23,084 nt of DNA, from positions 1 through 23,084 of IMG/VR virus record IMGVR_UViG_3300046001_001466; one strand, 5' to 3'. Shown piece by piece: positions 2,815 to 23,027 of the stretch. Within the stretch, counting starts at the first letter, position 1, and the number at the start of each line of letters is the position of its first letter. Source of the DNA: a virus. The notes under the pieces are model-generated. The model saw nothing but the letters and a program-made list of their open reading frames with translations. It had not been told where the DNA came from and did not search any database. The position numbers and the translations under genes are program-made.

Positions 2815-3105
2815 ATGGAAGGAAAGAAACAGAATGGAGGCAAACGTGAGGGTGCAGGAAGACCTACAAAGGTAGATGAGTTGAAAGTTAATGAACTGTT
2901 CAATAAAGCACTTAAAGTTCTTTACAAGCAAGATACGGACGAGGACAATAAAGTCAATTTTATAGTTGATTTATTAGATAGTCAAAGAGGGCAAATCTTT
3001 GTAGCTGAACATTTATTCGGTAAAGCAAAAGATACAGTTGAAACAACATTGAATGTAAACGATTTCAATATTAAAGATTACTTCAAAGTTGGTACTAGTA
3101 AATGA
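2815..3105 (+). CDS. terS: Terminase small subunit-like protein
   Basis: From ATG 2815 the protein has 96 residues. It starts MEGKKQNGGKREGAGRPTK; the GGKREGAGRP motif is a known N-terminal signature of a group of phage terminase small subunits and related DNA-binding proteins. Helices follow (VNELFNKALKVLYK; NFIVDLLDSQRGQIFVAEHLFGKAKD). A TTG at 2791 overlapping the previous stop would add eight residues (MNKQYFYQ). It overlaps the start of the large subunit gene, as expected of a small subunit. The assignment rests on motif and position. It would bind the packaging site and hand DNA to the large subunit. Confidence 0.7.
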   Translation: MEGKKQNGGKREGAGRPTKVDELKVNELFNKALKVLYKQDTDEDNKVNFIVDLLDSQRGQIFVAEHLFGKAKDTVETTLNVNDFNIKDYFKVGTSK

Positions 3106-4294
3106 TAAGTATAATGCTTTAGGCTCAGATTCTAGGTATTTTATAGCAACAGGTGGAAGAGGTAGTAGTAAGTCATTTTCTATTACTTCGTTTCTTGTTA
3201 TGTTATCTAGGGAATCAGGTCATGTTATTCTATTCACACGTTATACATTAGTTTCAGCATCTATATCAATCATTCCAGAATTCATTGAAAAGATTGAATT
3301 GCTTAAATTAGCACATGAGTTCATTATAACCAAAGATGAGATTATAAATATCAATTCAGGTAGTAAGATAATCTTTAAAGGAATAAAGACCAGTTCAGGA
3401 ACACAAACTGCAAACTTAAAATCATTAGCTGGAGTTACGACCTGGGTATTAGATGAAGCAGAAGAGTTAACAGATGAAGATACGTTTGATAAAATTGATT
3501 TATCTATCAGGCATAAGACAAAACAGAATAGAGTTATTCTTATACTTAATCCTGCTACAAAAGAGCACTTCATATATCAAAGATTCTTTGAAAGCAAAGG
3601 AGTGGCTGCAGGAAGTAACATAACAAAAGCAGATACAACGTACATACATACAACGTATTTAGATAACATTGAAAATCTATCTGAATCATTCCTACAACAG
3701 ATTGAAACTATTAAGCTACGAAGACCTGAAAGATACCAACATCAAATACTAGGGGGTTGGTTAGATAAAGCTGAAGGAGTTATTTTTACCAATTGGTCAA
3801 TAGGCAAGTTTCAAGATGTAGGTACTGTTGTGTACGGTCAAGATTTTGGATTCTCAAACGATCCATCTACATTGGTTGCAACATCAATAGATTCTGTAAA
3901 TAAGAAAATATATCTTAAGTTATTAATGTATCAAACTGGATTAACGACTACAGAAATATACCAACTGAATAAACACTACGCAGAAGATAAATTGATTGTA
4001 GCAGATTGTGCAGAACCGAGATTGATTAATGAATTAAGAGCAAAAGGATTGAACATCTTAGAAGCTGTGAAAGGTCAAGGAAGTGTAACACATGGAATCA
4101 CAATACTACAAGATTACGATTTAATAGTAGATGAAGATTCAGTTGATTTAATTAAGGAGTTGAATAATTACTGTTGGCTAGAGAAGAAAAGTAAAACACC
4201 AATAGATAAACACAATCACGCATTAGATGCTATCAGATATGCAGTAGGTTATCAGTTAGACAATCCAACAAGGGGAACATACGCAATATATTAA
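3089..4294 (+). CDS. terL: Terminase large subunit
   Basis: The protein has 401 residues. The ATPase half shows a Walker A-like loop TGGRGSSKS (21-29), Walker B WVLDEAEE (119-126, acidic D122 E123) and LILNP (151-155). The nuclease half has three acidic sites: QDFGFSND (D252), VADCAEP (D306) and HALDAIRYA (D380), the RNase H-like arrangement of Terminase_6/Terminase_3 families. It pumps DNA into the procapsid and cuts the concatemer. The start is a TTG at 3089, overlapping terS by 17 bases. The frame is closed by TAA at 3056-3058 and holds no ATG until residue 38, beyond Walker A, so a non-ATG start is required. At 401 residues it is at the short end for the family. Confidence 0.95.
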   Translation: MVLVNDKYNALGSDSRYFIATGGRGSSKSFSITSFLVMLSRESGHVILFTRYTLVSASISIIPEFIEKIELLKLAHEFIITKDEIININSGSKIIFKGIKTSSGTQTANLKSLAGVTTWVLDEAEELTDEDTFDKIDLSIRHKTKQNRVILILNPATKEHFIYQRFFESKGVAAGSNITKADTTYIHTTYLDNIENLSESFLQQIETIKLRRPERYQHQILGGWLDKAEGVIFTNWSIGKFQDVGTVVYGQDFGFSNDPSTLVATSIDSVNKKIYLKLLMYQTGLTTTEIYQLNKHYAEDKLIVADCAEPRLINELRAKGLNILEAVKGQGSVTHGITILQDYDLIVDEDSVDLIKELNNYCWLEKKSKTPIDKHNHALDAIRYAVGYQLDNPTRGTYAIY

Positions 4295-4484: not shown

Positions 4485-5171
4485 ATGAAACTAGAAATAC
4501 AAGTACCAACTAAATTAGCTGATATATCTTTAGAGAAATACCAGTCGTTTATGTCTATCAAAGAAAGCAATGAGGATGAGGATTTTGTCGGTAAAAAAAT
4601 GATAAGTATCTTCTGTGGTATTAAAATGAATAACGTAGGGTTACTTAAGAAGAGTTCAATAGATGAAGTTTCACAAGTCTTTGTTGATATATTTAGTACG
4701 TTACCAAAGTTTCAAGATAGATTTGAGATGGGCGGTAAAACGTTTGGCTTTATTCCTAACCTTGAAGATATAACACTAGATGAGTATATCGACTTAGATA
4801 ATAACATAGGTGATTGGAAAACATTCCATAAAGCAATGGCAGTAATGTACAGACCTATAATTAAAACGAAGGGTAATAAGTTTGAAATAGAGCCTTATAT
4901 AAGTAATATTACTTATGCTGATGTTATGAAGTATGCACCATTAGATGTTGCTACTGGAGCGAAGGTTTTTTTTTGGAATTTAAAAAGAGAATTATTGAAG
5001 GGTACGATAGCCTATTTGGAGCGAACGGTGAAGGAGATGAGTATTCAGCTCAAACACAATTTACCAAAAGATGGGGATGGTACAACAGCTTATACGCACT
5101 TGCTGGAGGAAACGTACAAGAGTTTGAAAGAGTTGGAAAACTTAGACTTCTTCAATGCTTACAATGGTTGA
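4485..5171 (+). CDS. Tail assembly chaperone-like protein, frame-0 product
   Basis: This 228-residue protein starts with a beta segment (MKLEIQVPTKLADISLEKY) and continues as a mostly helical acidic protein with LPKFQDRFEMGGKTFGFIP near the middle. Around residue 160 the coding sequence crosses nine T bases (4966-4974). Frame 0 continues as FFWNLKRELLKGTIAYLE and a lysine/glutamate-rich helical tail to a TGA at 5169-5171. A second open frame overlaps the last 200 bases. Being upstream of the tape measure gene and split across two frames at a homopolymer matches tail assembly chaperones such as lambda G/GT. Those proteins hold the tape measure during tail polymerisation and are absent from virions. 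Function is inferred from arrangement, not from a recognised domain. Confidence 0.7.
   Translation: MKLEIQVPTKLADISLEKYQSFMSIKESNEDEDFVGKKMISIFCGIKMNNVGLLKKSSIDEVSQVFVDIFSTLPKFQDRFEMGGKTFGFIPNLEDITLDEYIDLDNNIGDWKTFHKAMAVMYRPIIKTKGNKFEIEPYISNITYADVMKYAPLDVATGAKVFFWNLKRELLKGTIAYLERTVKEMSIQLKHNLPKDGDGTTAYTHLLEETYKSLKELENLDFFNAYNG
4966..4975 (+). promoter_or_regulatory. Putative -1 ribosomal frameshift site (T9 run)
   Basis: Nine T bases at 4966-4974 contain the in-frame slippery heptamer T-TTT-TTT (4967-4973). Slipping back one base puts ribosomes in the frame of the 82-codon extension starting with TTG at 4973-4975. That frame is closed upstream by TGA at 4919-4921 and has no ATG between there and the run, so slippage is the simplest way to express it. 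RNA polymerase slippage on nine T bases is an alternative. Confidence 0.65.
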
Positions 5172-5221
5172 TGTACGAAAGTGAAAAGGTTAAAACAGAA
5201 AGAGAAATTATAAACAAATGA
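4973..5221 (+). CDS. Tail assembly chaperone, -1 frame extension
   Basis: The second frame encodes 82 residues: EFKKRIIEGYDSLFG, then a Trp/Gly-rich block (TQFTKRWGWYNSLYALAGG) and a helical end QCLQWLMYESEKVKTERE. It reads as a true folded protein and resembles C-terminal halves of tail proteins I associate with Bacteroidota phages. A -1 slip on the T run would join it to the first 163 residues of the upstream frame, giving about 245 residues. Its stop overlaps the next ATG (ATGA, 5218-5221), whereas the frame-0 stop lies 46 bases earlier. That is strong evidence that this frame is translated. Separate initiation at TTG 4973 is possible but less likely. Confidence 0.65.
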   Translation: MEFKKRIIEGYDSLFGANGEGDEYSAQTQFTKRWGWYNSLYALAGGNVQEFERVGKLRLLQCLQWLMYESEKVKTEREIINK

Positions 5222-5673
5222 CAGGATTCTACGCAGTTACAACAAAGATAAAAGATACATTAGCACTAGATGCTTTTGTAAACACTATTACGATGGGTGA
5301 TATATTTGATGTGGATTTAAATAAACAAACAATATTTCCTTTATCACATTTGATAGTGAATACTGCAACAAAAGAAGATAGAGTTATGCGTTTCAGTTTT
5401 ACTTTGCTTTCAATGGATATAGTGAACATATCTAAGGTACAAGTTACTGACCAATGGATAGGCAATGATAACACACAAGATGTCTTGAACACACAATTGG
5501 CTGTACAATCTAGGTTAACTGAATTACTTAAACGTTCAAGCATTGTAACTGACCATTATATTCTAGATGGTAATCCTAGTTTTGAGCCGTTTACAGAAAG
5601 ATTTGAGAATAGTTTAGCAGGATGGGCTTGTACATTTGATGTATTAGTTCCTAATGACATGACGATATGTTAA
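5218..5673 (+). CDS. Tail terminator/completion-like protein
   Basis: The protein has 151 residues. Layout: a helix (TTKIKDTLALDAFVNTITMGD), beta strands (IFPLSHLIVNTAT; VMRFSFTLLSMDIV), a long helix (NTQDVLNTQLAVQSRLTELLKR) and a C-terminal strand-rich part (FTERFENSLAGWACTFDVLVPN). This alternation, ending with a GW-x3-F-x-V-x-VPN pattern, fits small tail terminator proteins that cap the tail tube before joining to the head. The neighbours, chaperone upstream and gp10-like protein downstream, support a tail-neck role. I assign it by fold-like pattern and context only. Confidence 0.5.
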   Translation: MTGFYAVTTKIKDTLALDAFVNTITMGDIFDVDLNKQTIFPLSHLIVNTATKEDRVMRFSFTLLSMDIVNISKVQVTDQWIGNDNTQDVLNTQLAVQSRLTELLKRSSIVTDHYILDGNPSFEPFTERFENSLAGWACTFDVLVPNDMTIC

Positions 5674-9633: not shown

Positions 9634-9786
9634 ATGAAAGAGATATTTGAAATGTTAAAATTAGATTCATTCTATAACATGAGTGAAGAAATAGAAATTG
9701 CAAAGGGTAAAAATCAAATCCCTACAACAGTTAAACAAGCGTTAAAACAAGCCAAAAGAGTTATAAGATGGAAACAAAAACGATAG
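9634..9786 (+). CDS. Small helical basic protein (50 aa)
   Basis: ATG at 9634, one base after the hub stop, opens a 50-residue frame ending at TAG 9784-9786. The N-terminal half is acidic (FEMLKLDSFYNMSEEIEIAKG) and the C-terminal half very basic (KQALKQAKRVIRWKQKR). It overlaps the tape measure gene by 19 bases in another frame and fills what would otherwise be a 135-base gap. It may be a small tail-associated or regulatory protein; no family is recognised. Confidence 0.5.
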   Translation: MKEIFEMLKLDSFYNMSEEIEIAKGKNQIPTTVKQALKQAKRVIRWKQKR

Positions 9787-11636
9787 TAGTAGAAGTTGAA
9801 AGTAACTTAGGTAGTTTAAAATCACAACTTAGAGAAGCACAAGCAGAAGTTTCTGCAATGGCTGAAAAGTTTGGAGCAACAAGTACTGAAGCAATTAATG
9901 CAGCGAAAGCAGCAGCCCGTTTAAAAGATACTATTGGTGACGCTAAGGCAATGACCGACGCCTTTAATCCAGATGCTAAATTCAAAGCGTTAACGGCTTC
10001 AATGAGTGGTGCATTAAATGGCTTTCAAGCTGTTGAGGGTGCTATGGGTTTATTTGGTGCTGAAGGTAAAGCAGTTCAAGAAACTTTATTGAAAGTTCAG
10101 AGTGCTATGGCATTAGCTCAAGGTGTTGATGGTTTACTAGAAGCAAAAGATGCGTTTAAAACGTTTGGAGCAACTGTAGTTAATGGAATGAAAGCTATTA
10201 AAGTTTCAATGCTTACACTTCCTATTTTTTGGATTATCGGAGGTATAGCGTTATTAACGGCTGCATTTATTTATTTAGAATCAACTGCACAAACTGCAGG
10301 AGATCGAATAGTAAAAGGATTTAACGGTGTTTCTAGAGCTGTTGATACAACAGTAAAATCAATTGAAAGGCTAGGCAAAACACAAGATACTGCAACTAAT
10401 AACTTACTTAAGAATTTAGACTTAGAAGCAAAGAGAAGGATTGCAATGGGTGAGGATGCGACTAAAGTACAAAAGGAAATAAACGCATTAAAAATTGAAG
10501 GTTTAAAAATCGCAATACAAGAAGATAGAGCAGCGACAAAAGCATTAAAAAACATAATAGATACTTTAGAAGTTGAAACTAAACGAGCTAAGGGAAAACT
10601 AGCACAACAAATTCTTGATGCTAAAGCTGAATCCGAATCTGCATTAACTGCTTTCGGTATGGCTGACGCTTTGCAAAGAATGAATAAACTTTCAGCACAA
10701 TATAATGCTTTAGAAAGCGAATCTAATAAATCACTTTTTGAAAGTCGTAAATTATTATACGCAAAAACAGCCGAAATTGTATCTTCTAAAGATGCTGTTG
10801 CAGAACTTCAGATTGCACAACTTGAGTTAAATAAAACTGAGAAAGAAGGGAGAGACGCAAAGAAAGATAAAGAAGAAAAAGTAAGTACAGATTTTAAATC
10901 TAGTTCTGAATTTGACATGATGAATGAAGGCGATATATTCGCTGAAGGATTAAGAAAAAAAGAATCTGATAGAATAGATGCATCAAACTTAGAAAAAGAA
11001 GCCGCTAGAACTGCAGAATTAGAAGGTATATCATGGGCAAATCAAGTTAAAGAAGAAAAAAGATTAGAAGATGAAGCGGCTGATAAAAAAGCACAAGAAG
11101 AAAAATTAGCAAGAAACAAACAAATAGCTAGTTTATCTTTAGACGCTACAAAACAAGGTCTTCAAGGAATATCTGATTTAGTAGGTGCATTTGCAGGAAA
11201 ATCTAAAGCAGCACAAAAGAAAGCATTTAACACACAAAAGAAACTTAATATAGCAATAGCTACTATTGATACTATCAAGGGTGCTGTAAGTGCATTTACA
11301 GGAATGACATCAACTATACCAGGACCCGTTGGTATAGCATTAGGTGTTGTTGCTGCTGCTGGTGTTGCTGCTTCAGGTGTTGCTCAAGTTAAGAAAATAT
11401 CATCTACTACTTTTGATGGTGGTGGTGGTGGAGGTGGCGAGGGTGCAGGTGGTGTTGGTGGAATGAATGCTCCATCCGTTCCTACTCCTGCTAACTTTAA
11501 TGTAGTGGGTAATTCAGGCACTAATCAATTAATGCAAGGATTACAAAGTCAACCTATAAAAGCATATGTTGTAGGTGGAGATGTTACAACAGCACAGAAT
11601 TTAGATAGAAATAAAATTACAACAGCATCAATTTAA
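9768..11636 (+). CDS. Tail tape measure protein
   Basis: This 622-residue protein is Ala/Lys/Glu-rich. The N-terminal 60 residues form helices of the type LGSLKSQLREAQAEVSAMAEKFG, ending in an AARLKDTIGDA segment, a common tape measure start. A hydrophobic segment at 148-170 (MLTLPIFWIIGGIALLTAAFIYL) could cross the membrane during DNA ejection. Long coiled-coil stretches follow to about residue 485, then small-residue helices (GPVGIALGVVAAAGVAASGVAQ) and a Gly-rich linker near 549-568. Tail length scales with this protein in siphophages; 622 residues would mean a tail of roughly 90 nm at about 1.5 angstrom per residue. It is small for the family and has no peptidase domain that I can see. 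Confidence 0.85.
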   Translation: METKTIVVEVESNLGSLKSQLREAQAEVSAMAEKFGATSTEAINAAKAAARLKDTIGDAKAMTDAFNPDAKFKALTASMSGALNGFQAVEGAMGLFGAEGKAVQETLLKVQSAMALAQGVDGLLEAKDAFKTFGATVVNGMKAIKVSMLTLPIFWIIGGIALLTAAFIYLESTAQTAGDRIVKGFNGVSRAVDTTVKSIERLGKTQDTATNNLLKNLDLEAKRRIAMGEDATKVQKEINALKIEGLKIAIQEDRAATKALKNIIDTLEVETKRAKGKLAQQILDAKAESESALTAFGMADALQRMNKLSAQYNALESESNKSLFESRKLLYAKTAEIVSSKDAVAELQIAQLELNKTEKEGRDAKKDKEEKVSTDFKSSSEFDMMNEGDIFAEGLRKKESDRIDASNLEKEAARTAELEGISWANQVKEEKRLEDEAADKKAQEEKLARNKQIASLSLDATKQGLQGISDLVGAFAGKSKAAQKKAFNTQKKLNIAIATIDTIKGAVSAFTGMTSTIPGPVGIALGVVAAAGVAASGVAQVKKISSTTFDGGGGGGGEGAGGVGGMNAPSVPTPANFNVVGNSGTNQLMQGLQSQPIKAYVVGGDVTTAQNLDRNKITTASI

Positions 11637-11651
11637 TAATGTTTTATAGTT

Positions 11652-12221
11652 ATGGAAAAGTTACAAGAAATAGAATTAACAATTAAGAGTGCAGACGATG
11701 GAGTCTTCGCCGTTTCTCTAGTTGAATCACCTGCAATAGAAAAGGATTTTGTATTCCTATCTTCTGAAGTAGTTGAGTTGAAAGTAGTAGATGAAGAAAG
11801 ACGTATAGTAGTAGGTTTCGCATTAGTTCCTGAAAAGAGAATATTTAGACGAATGAATGGAAAGGATTTTAATATATTTTTCACTAAAGAAACGGTAGCA
11901 CAAACTGCTGAAATCTATATGAAGAAATTAAACCTAAACAACTTTACTACGGAACACGAAGAAAAGGTGCAAGGTGTTTCAGTAATTGAAAGTTGGATAG
12001 TTGAAGATTATAAGAATGATAAATCTAATTTATATAATCTAGGTGCTAAGGGTGGCGAATGGGTTTTAATGAGTAAGATCTACAACGATGAAGTATGGAA
12101 TGAAATTAAAAACGGAACATTCAAAGGTTATTCAATAGAAGGTGCGTTTGATGGGTTTGAGCAATTACATTCTAAAGAAGATAATATTATTAATGAATTA
12201 AAAACTTTAATAAATGGCTAG
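11652..12221 (+). CDS. Prohead protease, XkdF-like
   Basis: The protein has 189 residues. It has the herpesvirus-assemblin-like pattern of phage prohead proteases: VSLVESPAIEKDF (21-33), GFALVPEKRIFR (55-66), TTEHEEKVQGVSVIESWIVED with H102 and E113, then GEWVLMSKI and KGYSIEGAF with S161. H102 and S161 are the likely catalytic pair; the SPAIEKDF and VIESWIV blocks are characteristic of the XkdF family. It would cleave scaffold and capsid delta regions during head maturation. It starts 15 bases after the tape measure stop and overlaps the next gene by eight bases. Unusually, it is not next to the portal gene, which lies about 4.5 kb downstream. Confidence 0.8.
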   Translation: MEKLQEIELTIKSADDGVFAVSLVESPAIEKDFVFLSSEVVELKVVDEERRIVVGFALVPEKRIFRRMNGKDFNIFFTKETVAQTAEIYMKKLNLNNFTTEHEEKVQGVSVIESWIVEDYKNDKSNLYNLGAKGGEWVLMSKIYNDEVWNEIKNGTFKGYSIEGAFDGFEQLHSKEDNIINELKTLING

Positions 12222-14731: not shown

Positions 14732-15685
14732 ATGGCAACTACAACGTCAATTACAACAAGTTATATCGGGGAAAATTCTGCTCGATACGTTTCTGCAGCA
14801 TTACTTTCTGCAAACAGTTTAGAAAATGGAGGATTAACTATCTTACCAAACATTAAGTACAAACAAGTAATCAATAAAATCGGTATTGATGCAATCTTGA
14901 AAGATGCTACTTGTGATTTTACTGCAACATCTACAGTTACTTTAACTGAAAGAGTTCTTACAGTAGAGGATTTTCAAGTTAACTTACAATTGTGTAAGAA
15001 AGATTATCATAATACATGGATGGGATTACAACAAGGTTTCTCTGCTCATGATACTTTGCCTAAATCTTTTTCTGATTACCTTATTGCATTAGTTGCTGAT
15101 AAAGTTGCTGCTACTGTAGAGACTAACATTTGGTCAGGTGCTACTGCTACTTCTGGTGCTTTTGATGGTTTTGAAGTTCTTTTAGCTGCTGATGCTGCTC
15201 TTCCTACTGCTAACGAAGTTGCTGGTGCTGCTGTATCTTCTGCAACTATCATTGTTGAATTAGGTAAAATTGTTGATGCTATTCCTGCTGCTGTTTACGG
15301 TAACGAAGGATTAAGAATCTATGCTTCACGTGCAATTGTTAAGGCTTATATTCGTGCATTAGGTGGATTCGGAACAAGTGGATTAGGTGGAAATGGTGTT
15401 AACGCACAAGGTACACAATGGTACACAGATGGTTCTTTATCATTTGACGGGATTCCAATCTTCATGGCGTCAGGAATGACTTCTACAGTTGCTATTTGTA
15501 CATATCCTGAAAACTTATATTTCGGTTGTTCAATCTTATCTGACTTGAATGAAGTAAAAGTAATCGATATGAGCGAAATGGATGGTTCTCAAAACGTACG
15601 TGTTATAATGCGTATGGGTATGGGTATTCAATATGCTAACGTTTCAGATATCGTTACTTACGGAATCACCAACGCAGCTAACTAA
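14732..15685 (+). CDS. Major capsid protein (HK97-type fold likely)
   Basis: The protein has 317 residues and is Ala/Gly/Thr-rich with few charged residues. The N-terminal part (SARYVSAALLSANSLENGGLTILPNIKYK) is followed by a strand-rich region (LTERVLTVEDFQVNLQLCKKDYHNTW), a central helix (FSDYLIALVADKVAATVETNIWSG) and a long domain ending in FDGIPIFMASGM, NLYFGCSILSD and VRVIMRMGMGIQYANVSDIVTYG. The helix that tests and binds, then the GIP-x-F and final beta elements, are typical of HK97-fold capsid proteins of this group. It follows scaffold- and decoration-like genes and ends in a strong terminator, as expected for the most abundant virion protein. Confidence 0.8.
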   Translation: MATTTSITTSYIGENSARYVSAALLSANSLENGGLTILPNIKYKQVINKIGIDAILKDATCDFTATSTVTLTERVLTVEDFQVNLQLCKKDYHNTWMGLQQGFSAHDTLPKSFSDYLIALVADKVAATVETNIWSGATATSGAFDGFEVLLAADAALPTANEVAGAAVSSATIIVELGKIVDAIPAAVYGNEGLRIYASRAIVKAYIRALGGFGTSGLGGNGVNAQGTQWYTDGSLSFDGIPIFMASGMTSTVAICTYPENLYFGCSILSDLNEVKVIDMSEMDGSQNVRVIMRMGMGIQYANVSDIVTYGITNAAN

Positions 15686-15704
15686 TAATTAATTATTAAC
15701 TAAG

Positions 15705-15737
15705 AAGGGGTGGTGCAATATACACCATCCCTTTTTT
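15705..15737 (+). terminator. Intrinsic terminator after the capsid gene
   Basis: AAGGGGTGGTG (15705-15715) pairs with CACCATCCCTT (15723-15733) over 11 bp with one G-U pair and a 7-base loop. T bases run through 15732-15737. It lies 20 bases after the capsid stop and before the tail tube gene. Confidence 0.9.
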
Positions 15738-15750
15738 AATACATATAAAA

Positions 15751-16293
15751 ATGGCTTGTGAAATAACACTAGGGCGTATAGAGCCTTGTAAAGACAGTAT
15801 TGGTGGATTAGATGCAATTTACTTCGTTAACGAAGGAGATACGACTGGATACACTTATGATGCTACAAATACTGATTCAATTGAAACTGTAACGGGAACA
15901 CCTGTTGCTTTTAAATACGATTTGAAAGGGAGTGCTAATACTTTCGTTCAAACTGTAAACTCTTCAAGAGATAACGGTACTACTTTCTTTGACCAAAAAT
16001 TATCTATTACATTAAAGAAACTTTCTGTATCTGACCACAAACAACTTAAATTGTTGATTTACGGAAGACCAAACGTTATCGTTAAAGATAACAACGGTAA
16101 TTTCTTCTTAGCAGGAAAAGACTTTGGAATGGATGTAACCGGTGGAACTATCGTAACTGGTGGTGCAATGGGAGATTTGAGTGGCTACACTTTAGAATTA
16201 ACGGGAATGGAAAAAGTACCTGCTAACTTCTTTGAAGCAACTACTGAAGCGTTACTTATTACTTCAGGGTATACAATCACTGCAGGAGTATAA
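15751..16293 (+). CDS. Major tail tube protein
   Basis: The protein has 180 residues and starts MACEITLGRIEPCKDSIGG, then LDAIYFVNEGD. Beta strands dominate (FDQKLSITLKKLS, GNFFLAGKDFGMDVTGG, GYTLELTGMEKVPANFF). I associate the CEITLGR-x-EPCKD start and the GYTL-x-L-x-GxE-x2-PA end with major tail proteins of Bacteroidota siphophages. The final EKVPANFF block matches the tube-protein rule of a beta hairpin near the C-terminus. It would polymerise around the tape measure. It lies between two intrinsic terminators and far (about 10.5 kb) from the chaperone genes, which is unusual. Confidence 0.8.
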   Translation: MACEITLGRIEPCKDSIGGLDAIYFVNEGDTTGYTYDATNTDSIETVTGTPVAFKYDLKGSANTFVQTVNSSRDNGTTFFDQKLSITLKKLSVSDHKQLKLLIYGRPNVIVKDNNGNFFLAGKDFGMDVTGGTIVTGGAMGDLSGYTLELTGMEKVPANFFEATTEALLITSGYTITAGV

Positions 16294-16313
16294 TTATTAT
16301 TTTCTAGAAACAG

Positions 16314-16344
16314 AAACCCTCGCTGAATTAGTGGGGGTTTTTTT
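16314..16344 (+). terminator. Intrinsic terminator after the tail tube gene
   Basis: AAACCCTCGCT (16314-16324) pairs with AGTGGGGGTTT (16330-16340) over 11 bp, with G-U pairs and a 5-base loop (GAATT), followed by T bases to 16344. It starts 21 bases after the tail tube stop. A downstream TTG (16343-16345) and TAACTTTT (16362-16369) might form a weak promoter for the portal unit. Confidence 0.9.
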
Positions 16345-16385
16345 GTTTTTAAAACAGTTTTTAACTTTTCTTGTTATTATAGTAT

Positions 16386-16715
16386 ATGATTATCTTAAAA
16401 GAATTAGCGACAAGTCAAACGTTTAAAGTTATTCCAAGAACATTGGCAGCAACATCTATGACTTTTACGCATGAAGAAACTGGAATAGTTACAACTTATG
16501 CAATTACACCAACTATTGATAGATACTATTTATCTATTTCAAAGATTCTTGTTTTAAAAGATAATCATTTTTACACGCTAAATATTTTGGATGGTACTAC
16601 TGTAGTTTATACAGATAAGGTATTCGTTACAAATCAAACAATAGCAACTTATTCAATTAACAACGGAGAATATGTACAATCTTCTTCAAATAATGACTAT
16701 GTAGTTTATGAGTGA
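16386..16715 (+). CDS. Small beta-rich structural protein
   Basis: The protein has 109 residues and is almost all beta: MIILKELATSQTFKVIPR, SMTFTHEETGIVTTYAI, YYLSISKILVLKDNHFYTLNILDG, VVYTDKVFVTNQTI, and an end NNDYVVYE. The repeated strand pattern suggests a fibronectin- or Ig-like sandwich. It overlaps the portal gene by eight bases. I have an impression of similar proteins just before portal genes in Bacteroidota phages, so it may be a minor head or head-tail interface protein. No firm function. Confidence 0.65.
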   Translation: MIILKELATSQTFKVIPRTLAATSMTFTHEETGIVTTYAITPTIDRYYLSISKILVLKDNHFYTLNILDGTTVVYTDKVFVTNQTIATYSINNGEYVQSSSNNDYVVYE

Positions 16716-18453
16716 AACATCAAATAGTTTTGTACTAGAATTATCTAGTTACACACAGCCTTCAATTATAGAAGATTCACGTAATGCGTGGGTTGAATAT
16801 GGTGAAGATAATAATTACTATTCTTGGTTAATTGACCGTTATAGAAATTCGCCTACTAACAATGCTGTAATCAACAATATGTCAAAGTTGATATACGGCA
16901 AAGGGTTAAACGCAAAAGACGCTAATAGAAAGCCTAACGAATACGCTCAAATGAAGATGTTATTCGGTAAAACTTGTTTACGATCCGTTATTCTAGATTT
17001 GAAACTAATGGGTTCAGGTGCTTTTCAATGTATTAAATCAAAAGGTTTAATATCTAAAGTTGAACATTTACCAATGAATCTATTAAGACCTGCTAAATGC
17101 AATGACAAAGGTATTGTAGAGGGCTATTGGTATTCTGATAATTGGGATGACATTAAAAAGTTTGTTCCTGTATTTATTCCATGTTTAGGCACTACAACAG
17201 AAGATATTGAAGTTTTAGTATTTGGTAACTATTCGGTAGGTAGAAAATATTTTAGTGCCGTAGATTACGAAGGTGCTTTAGACTATTGTGTACTTGAAGA
17301 AAGAATAGCTGAATATCTAATTAACGAAGTTGAAAACGGATTTTCAGGAACTAAAGTCGTAAACTTTAACAATGGTGTACCTGGAGAAGAACAACAAAGA
17401 CTTCAATCTAGTAAAGTATTAAACAAATTAACGGGTTCAAGAGGTCAAAAAGTAATCGTTTCTTTTAATAATAACGAAACACAAAAGACTACAGTTGACG
17501 ATATACCATTAAACGATGCACCACAACACTACGAATACTTATCTACAGAAGCTAGAAACAAGATTTTAGTAGGTCATAATATTACTTCTCCTATGTTAGT
17601 AGGTGTTACTTTGGATGGTAGTGGTTTTTCTAGTTCAGCAGATGAAATTGAAGTTGCAGCAATCTATTTTTATAATACTATTGTAAATCACTTTCAAGAA
17701 CTAGTTACAGATGCTTGTGATACTATTTTAGCAATTAACGGTATTGCTTTAGATTTATTCTTTGAGCGTAAATCTTTAACTACAGATTCAAATGTTGTAG
17801 CACAAGCACAAGAAACTACTACGCTTTCTTTAAGTTCTGCTATTGACAAATTAAACTTAGATAACTTTGGAGAAAATGCTCCTGAAAATTGGTTATTAAT
17901 TGATGAGTTTGAAGTTGATTACGATACTGACGATTCAGAAAATGCATTATTAAGCGAAAAACCAAAAGAAGAAACTTTACTATCTAAGATTTGGAACTTT
18001 ATTTCTTCAGGAGATGCAAGACCAAATATAACAAGTAAGCAAGATGAAAATATTGATGGTATAAAATTCGTTACACGTTATAAATATGCAGGAGAAACAA
18101 GTGAAGATTCTCGTGCTTTTTGTAAAAATATGATGAAAGCTAATAAGATATATCGTAAAGAAGATATTATAAATATGGGAAGTCAAGTTGTTAACGAAGG
18201 ATGGGGACCTGAAGGGACTGATTTATATTCTGTTTGGTTTTTTAAAGGCGGTGGAGCGTGTCATCATAGATGGAATAAGCAAGTTTATGCTGTTCTTTCT
18301 GGTACTGCTTTAAATTTGCCTAATCAAAAACAAATATCACAAGCAAAGGCTAAGAAATACGGTTATGAAATTAAAAACGAAAGTTTAGTATCTACAAGAC
18401 CAATTGATATGCCTTACAACGGTTTTTTACCAACTAATAAAAGATTTAACTAA
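16708..18453 (+). CDS. Portal protein with C-terminal Cys/His domain
   Basis: The protein has 581 residues. Residues 1-400 look like a portal: Tyr/Trp-rich start (WVEYGEDNNYYSWLIDRYRNSPTN at 28-51, a frequent portal opening), LIYGKGL, LDLKLMGSGAF, and the helix-rich crown with GHNITSPMLVGV (289-300) before GSGFSSSADEIE (304-315), a typical portal segment. Residues 450-527 form a further domain: FVTRYKYAGETSEDSRAFCKNM, EDIINMG, NEGWGPEGTDLYSVWFFKGGGACHH and RW. C472, C518, H519 and H520 could bind a metal. SRAFC and the GP...C-HH-x-W pattern recall the conserved part of Mu gpF/SPP1 gp7-like minor head proteins. Portal fused to such a domain is inference. It starts eight bases inside the preceding gene. 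Confidence 0.85.
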   Translation: MSETSNSFVLELSSYTQPSIIEDSRNAWVEYGEDNNYYSWLIDRYRNSPTNNAVINNMSKLIYGKGLNAKDANRKPNEYAQMKMLFGKTCLRSVILDLKLMGSGAFQCIKSKGLISKVEHLPMNLLRPAKCNDKGIVEGYWYSDNWDDIKKFVPVFIPCLGTTTEDIEVLVFGNYSVGRKYFSAVDYEGALDYCVLEERIAEYLINEVENGFSGTKVVNFNNGVPGEEQQRLQSSKVLNKLTGSRGQKVIVSFNNNETQKTTVDDIPLNDAPQHYEYLSTEARNKILVGHNITSPMLVGVTLDGSGFSSSADEIEVAAIYFYNTIVNHFQELVTDACDTILAINGIALDLFFERKSLTTDSNVVAQAQETTTLSLSSAIDKLNLDNFGENAPENWLLIDEFEVDYDTDDSENALLSEKPKEETLLSKIWNFISSGDARPNITSKQDENIDGIKFVTRYKYAGETSEDSRAFCKNMMKANKIYRKEDIINMGSQVVNEGWGPEGTDLYSVWFFKGGGACHHRWNKQVYAVLSGTALNLPNQKQISQAKAKKYGYEIKNESLVSTRPIDMPYNGFLPTNKRFN

Positions 18454-22313: not shown

Positions 22314-23027
22314 ATGGAATATAGACCAAGATTAAATGAAACAGAATATAATCTAATTTTAAACGCCCGTAAGAATAACGGAAATAGAGTTTTATGTATC
22401 GGAGATTTGCATGAACCGTTTTGCTTAGATGGTTATATTGACTTCTGTATTGAGATGTATAAGAAACATAGTTGCAATAAAGTAGTTTTCATTGGTGACG
22501 TTATCGACTGCCATTATTCGTCTTATCACGAGACCGATTCAGATGGTTTAGGTGGAGGTCAAGAACTAGATTTAGCAATTAGTAAATTAGCAAAGTGGTA
22601 TGAAGCATTTCCACAAGCTGATGTAACAATCGGTAACCACGATAGATTAATAATGCGTAAGGCTCAAACGGGTGGAATACCTACCAAGTGGATTAAAGCA
22701 TATAAAGAAGTGTTAGAAACGCCTGAATGGAATTTTACGCATAGAGTTATAATCGACAACGTTCAATACATTCATGGTGAAGCAGGAACGGCAAAAGCTA
22801 AATGTAAAGCTGACATGATGTCAACAGTTCAAGGGCATTTACATACTCAATGTTATACAGAATGGTTTGCAGGTGCTAACTTTAAGATATTTGGAGCACA
22901 AGTAGGTTGTGGAGTAGATCATGATGCGTATGCAATGGCGTATGCAAAAGCTGGAAAGAAACCAATTATAGGTTGTGCTGTAATAATAAACGGTAAAACT
23001 TGTATAAACGAGTTGATGGAGTTATAA
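22314..23027 (+). CDS. Calcineurin-type metallophosphoesterase
   Basis: The protein has 237 residues with all the family motifs in order: GDLHEP (D31, H33), GDVID (D62), GNHDR (N108, H109), IHGEAG (H154) and GHLH (H175, H177). These residues bind two metal ions, so the active site looks complete. A Gly-rich loop GLGGGQELD (78-86) separates the first two motifs. There is no signal peptide. Phage enzymes of this family act on nucleic acids, nucleotides or phosphoproteins; the substrate cannot be read from the sequence. It follows the lysis terminator and so probably belongs to another transcription unit than the structural genes. Confidence 0.85.
   Translation: MEYRPRLNETEYNLILNARKNNGNRVLCIGDLHEPFCLDGYIDFCIEMYKKHSCNKVVFIGDVIDCHYSSYHETDSDGLGGGQELDLAISKLAKWYEAFPQADVTIGNHDRLIMRKAQTGGIPTKWIKAYKEVLETPEWNFTHRVIIDNVQYIHGEAGTAKAKCKADMMSTVQGHLHTQCYTEWFAGANFKIFGAQVGCGVDHDAYAMAYAKAGKKPIIGCAVIINGKTCINELMEL

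Follow-up and report, generated by a model that had tools for sequence, protein, structure and literature searches.

The window analysed here is a 23,084-base stretch of viral DNA (IMG/VR virus record IMGVR_UViG_3300046001_001466, positions 1-23,084), in which a gene with two probable alternative ends, referred to below as the fork gene, appears to lie within a tail module. The order of genes is terminase, fork gene, two small genes, two larger genes, and tape measure gene; thus, the fork gene adjoins the terminase gene, and four genes separate it from the tape measure gene downstream (Table 1). Upstream of the terminase gene, positions 1189-1755 encode a small sigma-factor-like protein (weak HTH match), and in the corresponding region of the Nonlabens phage P12024S, a gene is noted as sigma-70 region 2. 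An XkdF-type protease and a likely capsid protein and portal are found downstream of the tail module (11652-12221 and 14732-18453), i.e., the head genes follow the tail genes, although head genes usually come first. The window ends with a calcineurin-like phosphoesterase (22314-23027, Pfam PF00149).

Within the fork gene, the frame-0 codons across a run of nine T (T9) are GTT TTT TTT TGG, which places the canonical -1 heptamer T_TTT_TTT in register. The frame-0 open reading frame (4485-5171) encodes 228 amino acids, and a product that shifts at the heptamer would have 163+82 = 245 amino acids. The -1 frame is closed on its upstream side by TGA 4919-4921, contains no ATG or GTG, has TTG 4973 as its sole candidate start, and terminates at TGA 5219-5221, which overlaps the ATG of the next gene at 5218 (ATGA). 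The earlier note had already described the T run at 4966-4974 within an approximately 200-base overlap of two long frames, the products of 228 and about 245 residues, and the -1 frame of 82 codons (here counted from 4973) with no ATG, the upstream TGA, and the stop overlapping the next ATG; all of this agrees with the sequence, and only its count of 66 frame-0 codons beyond the run must be corrected to 65. In nearly all loci, the +1 frame is closed two codons past the T run (window 4975-4985), which would shorten any +1 product; a designed truncation was considered, but the coding of the other two frames probably accounts for this stop.

Table 1. Positions of the fork gene, its putative slip site, and the neighbouring genes in the window.
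Feature	Position	Strand	Basis or similarity
Terminase large subunit, upstream neighbour	3089..4294	+	
N-terminal part of both products, 163 codons (residues 1-163)	4485..4973	+	ORF list; AF2; phrog_32199
T9 run	4966..4974	+	Sequence; T9 also in 243/254 distinct loci
T_TTT_TTT, in-frame slippery heptamer, proposed -1 slip site	4967..4973	+	Register kept in 254/254 distinct loci
-1 tail entered by the proposed shift, 82 codons + stop, helical domain rich in Trp/Gly, with WGWY motif	4973..5221	+	
Frame-0 tail, 65 codons + stop, helix continued from N-terminal domain and less certain second helix	4974..5171	+	
Next gene, 151 aa, ATG overlaps -1 stop (ATGA)	5218..5673	+	phrog_30964, unknown function
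Tape measure protein, 622 aa, same module	9768..11636	+	PHROG tape-measure matches, best E 8e-9

When viral contigs were searched with the frame-0 protein, over 590 related stretches were obtained, and the 80 best entered the analysis. Three further kinds of query enlarged the set: the -1 tail, an alignment restricted to the N-terminal domain, and the P12024S gene. The search with the N-terminal domain alone does not favour loci that have the T run, and it gave T9 or T10 in every locus that reaches the site. The site could be read in 254 distinct loci; 243 have T9, four have T10, five have T8 (L240, L241, L242, L244, and L251), and two have T7 (L259 and L263); both tails are open in all seven loci with the shorter runs, and L259 and L263 read ACT TTT TTT AC-, i.e., the heptamer and no more. 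As judged from phase counts and sequence contexts, T_TTT_TTT is present in the same register in all 254. Two loci sit in Bacteroidota MAGs, and three loci without a run end short of the site. The case that, according to the earlier note, would speak against a fork (a homologue without the T run and with stops in one frame) did not occur, in that no distinct locus had lost the slip heptamer. The conservation of the heptamer together with two open frames is well above chance. The -1 tail is near-universal among the homologues; it is 76-92 codons long in all complete loci but one (40 codons), with F30 and W34 invariant. Since the few loci with a short frame-0 tail (15-37 codons) still carry the heptamer and an intact -1 tail, the -1 tail is the constant part of the gene.

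The T run appears to be the only common entry to the -1 frame because ATG and GTG are absent from this frame in all 76 listed loci, the junction codon is TTA in 138 of the 243 T9 loci (TTG in 104), and in some loci a -1 stop sits only 2 nt ahead of the run. That the -1 frame is a separate gene begun at TTG 4973 is hardly credible and was rejected: TTG opens the frame in the window, where AAGG lies 7 nt 5' of it, and in the 104 loci mentioned, but the TTA loci and the many listed loci without any start codon in that stretch contradict such a start, the SD-like sequence is not conserved, and the invariance of T_TTT_TTT would be left without a reason. The -1 extension is thus a conserved domain that lacks a start of its own, as in the G/GT pair of phage lambda.

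Synonymous-site constraint was analysed in both frames on aligned homologues, as the earlier note had suggested, and was found in both, which supports the fork and its dual coding. Of 244 loci, 238 have a frame 0 that stays open for 50 codons or more, compared with 20.8 expected if the -1 frame alone were selected (random synonymous codons), and the -1 frame is open in 227 of 228 loci, compared with about three expected if frame 0 alone were selected. As the loci share ancestry, these are not independent events, a limitation that affects comparisons of pairs less. Across 79 disjoint pairs, the synonymous differences within the overlap are reduced to 0.22 (95% 0.19-0.26) of the upstream N-terminal rate in frame 0 and to 0.39 (95% 0.33-0.45) in the -1 frame; part of the latter suppression does not come from frame 0 because the short region coded in the -1 frame only is also below the upstream rate (silent change 0.156 vs. 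0.292). Loci L001 and L004, close relatives of the window, are 82% and 81% identical to it upstream but 96% and 95% identical in the overlap. Single changes tell the same for each frame: 168 changes silent in frame 0 produced no stops in the -1 frame (15.8 expected) and were conservative for the -1 residue (BLOSUM 1.17 vs. 0.10 expected), and 327 changes silent in the -1 frame produced no frame-0 stops (17.6 expected, matched for base change) and were milder in frame 0 than expected (BLOSUM 0.18 vs. -0.71; 0/2000 resamples). The latter changes are conservative in frame 0 in all three segments of the overlap, most strongly in the first 25 codons (BLOSUM 1.38 vs. -0.56). The load of selection shifts within 4974-5171, with frame 0 dominating the first 25 codons and the -1 frame thereafter, and both frames are selected in every segment.

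It could be argued that only the -1 domain matters and that the frame-0 tail is a by-product, open yet without function, i.e., that the gene is a classic G/GT pair with a late stop. Indeed, the -1 frame is more constrained overall (dN/dS, each frame scored alone, 0.26 vs. 0.70 for frame 0), and the frame-0 tail is short in P12024S/P12024L, L179, L277, and L280. However, the excess of loci with an open frame 0, the lack of frame-0 stops, and the conservative frame-0 changes in every tail segment make such a by-product quite improbable. At the level of sequence, the slip site, the two open frames, and the selection on both are established, and both tails are, by these comparisons, under protein-level selection in hundreds of related phages.

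The -1 frame might also be reached without any ribosomal shift, if RNA polymerase added a U within T9 and the resulting 10-U messages were read in the -1 frame, yielding the same two proteins. In many bacterial genomes, selection against slippage-prone runs becomes evident from about nine bases (PMC1088944), which is the length of the run in the window and in 243 of the 254 loci, and mxiE of Shigella uses a U run in like manner to join two overlapping frames (PMC1088944). In addition, no stimulatory RNA structure was seen: a search of the family for RNA structure downstream of the slip gave no signal, an Rfam search around the slip gave no match, and an SD-like stimulator near the slip is present in 22 of 96 loci, i.e., it is not conserved. 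Nonetheless, whereas mxiE slips at transcription, divergent members of the fork family keep the heptamer and not the run length; a homopolymer of about nine or more bases, as expected for an mxiE-type mechanism, is lacking in the five T8 and two T7 homologues (the window itself has T9), and both tails are still open in them. The two extra Ts of T9 can be explained by protein constraint (a hydrophobic NTT codon before the heptamer and Leu/Phe in the -1 frame after it). Slippage by RNA polymerase thus appears unlikely, and a ribosomal -1 slip is favoured, since the run shrinks to T8 or T7 in divergent members and the heptamer is kept; the ribosome would be the agent of the shift.

Both tails also look like protein, as the earlier note had proposed. 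AF2 predicts for the frame-0 product a confident N-terminal domain (residues 1-170) leading into a long helix that is continued by the frame-0 tail, with an uncertain far end, and for the -1 tail on its own a compact, helical, Trp/Gly-rich domain (pLDDT 83); both tails are selected. Sequence and fold searches of the PDB gave no usable match, which does not make the fold new, and Pfam and NCBIfam searches over the whole family yielded only scattered matches at chance level.

The identity of the fork protein must be worded more cautiously. The window protein matches phrog_32199 (E 9.5e-12), as do 95 of 95 family members, and 15 of the -1 tails match phrog_38404; both groups are of unknown function and, by their length, might correspond to genes 38 and 39 of P12024S. 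A role in the tail module is likely because of the neighbourhood, which extends from terminase to the tape measure gene. The label of tail chaperone given in the earlier note holds in so far as this context and weak similarities agree with it: Pfam Phage_TAC_7 was matched in one member only (E 0.042), and among BFVD matches, which are mostly unnamed phage proteins, there is a weak one to the 'tail assembly chaperone' ctCpR1 (E 0.027). The label does not extend to a significant similarity to any named chaperone family, which the Pfam and BFVD searches did not find. The protein R9VW65 of Flavobacterium phage 6H (BFVD E 9e-5) was considered as a relative and set aside, as its -1 frame closes at once. 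It was taken to be the 191-aa gene L310:10352-10927 (minus strand), with weak profile similarity (E 0.0018); this gene has T_TTT_TTC near its end, and the frames downstream are oddly arranged. The absence of strong chaperone similarity and the position next to terminase would also suit a structural protein whose two ends arise from this shift, such as a neck or connector protein. However, tail chaperones widely conserve a -1 shift in a small protein that is encoded in one module with the tape measure gene (PMC5009743), and the weak BFVD and Pfam matches point in the same direction, so that a structural role seems rather improbable. Context and weak similarity together make a chaperone role the best inference, and the fork gene may belong to the G/GT family.

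The programmed frameshifts known from tail genes yield a short and a long protein, with few leftover frame-0 codons. The fork gene shares with lambda gpG/gpGT an in-frame X_XXY_YYZ heptamer for a -1 shift, placed towards the end of a tail-module gene (conserved in the 3' part of the gene in 254/254 distinct loci) and a common N-terminus with an extra domain in the -1 product, although no sequence similarity between the fork protein and gpG/gpGT was detected. In lambda, the tape measure gene follows the pair immediately, whereas four genes intervene in the window. Both lambda and P2 use a -1 shift in a tail chaperone role (PMC5009743); P2 E/E+E' likewise carries a -1 shift by annotation, in an operon of tail genes that precedes the tape measure gene; since E terminates about 20 nt past the annotated site, its frame-0 end is a stub. 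Frame 0 continues after the heptamer for 15 nt in lambda, for 195 nt in the window, and for a median of 210 nt in the fork family, and the mean after the slip in the SEA-PHAGES training genomes is 26 nt (PMC10885494). Thus, the early frame-0 stop that is typical of G/GT genes, though it does not define them, is generally missing in the fork family, and the claim of a fork with two C-termini, different from the usual short/long pair, is upheld. Neither the fork family nor a long fork in tail chaperones was found described in the open-access literature; the fork layout would be a new variation on a mechanism that probably resembles G/GT.

True homologues with the same T9 and -1 tail are genes 38/39 of the cultured Nonlabens phages P12024S and P12024L, which differ in that the P12024S frame-0 tail has only 24 codons. 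In P12024S (L093), T9 lies at L093:2943-2951, and the annotation gives two separate hypothetical genes, 38 and 39, which most likely form one frameshift pair. In L093:2943-3195 (JQ823122.1 23578-23830), gene 39 (55 aa) covers just the last part of the 81-codon -1 tail. L177, L178, L179, L277, and L280 are further loci with short frame-0 tails. A midpoint-rooted tree places P12024S and L179 opposite the rest, with L280 next, on long branches and with a tentative root. Most simply, the -1 domain would have come first, and the frame-0 tail would have extended across it later. Whether the frame-0 tail is a working domain overprinted on an older -1 chaperone domain, which would give two full-length chaperones from one slip site, is a question on which the arguments are evenly balanced.

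Overall, a fork that yields two products by a -1 slip, as a chaperone pair similar to lambda G/GT in which the frame-0 end is extended over the -1 domain, is a fairly probable reading of the locus. One gene would give two proteins that share their first 163 residues and differ beyond them: the majority of ribosomes would be expected to continue in frame 0 and produce the 228-residue protein, and a fraction would slip back one base on T_TTT_TTT and produce the 245-residue protein with its Trp/Gly-rich helical end. The pair probably works like the gpG/gpGT tail chaperones: the tape measure protein would be held by the part common to both products, tail-tube subunits would be brought in by the -1 domain, and the ratio of the two products would be set by the efficiency of the slip. 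Unlike in lambda, the frame-0 end is itself conserved and under selection, and its coding sequence overlaps that of the -1 domain.

For a large group of mostly uncultured phages, this means that about 200 bases are kept doubly coded. Gene callers miss the -1 product, of which the annotation of P12024S is an example. Because relatives with short and long frame-0 tails exist around one slip site, the origin of the overlap and the meaning of the chaperone ratio are directly testable. If overprinting is true, these phages would make two different full-length chaperones, with a single slip site setting their ratio, and not a short/long pair.
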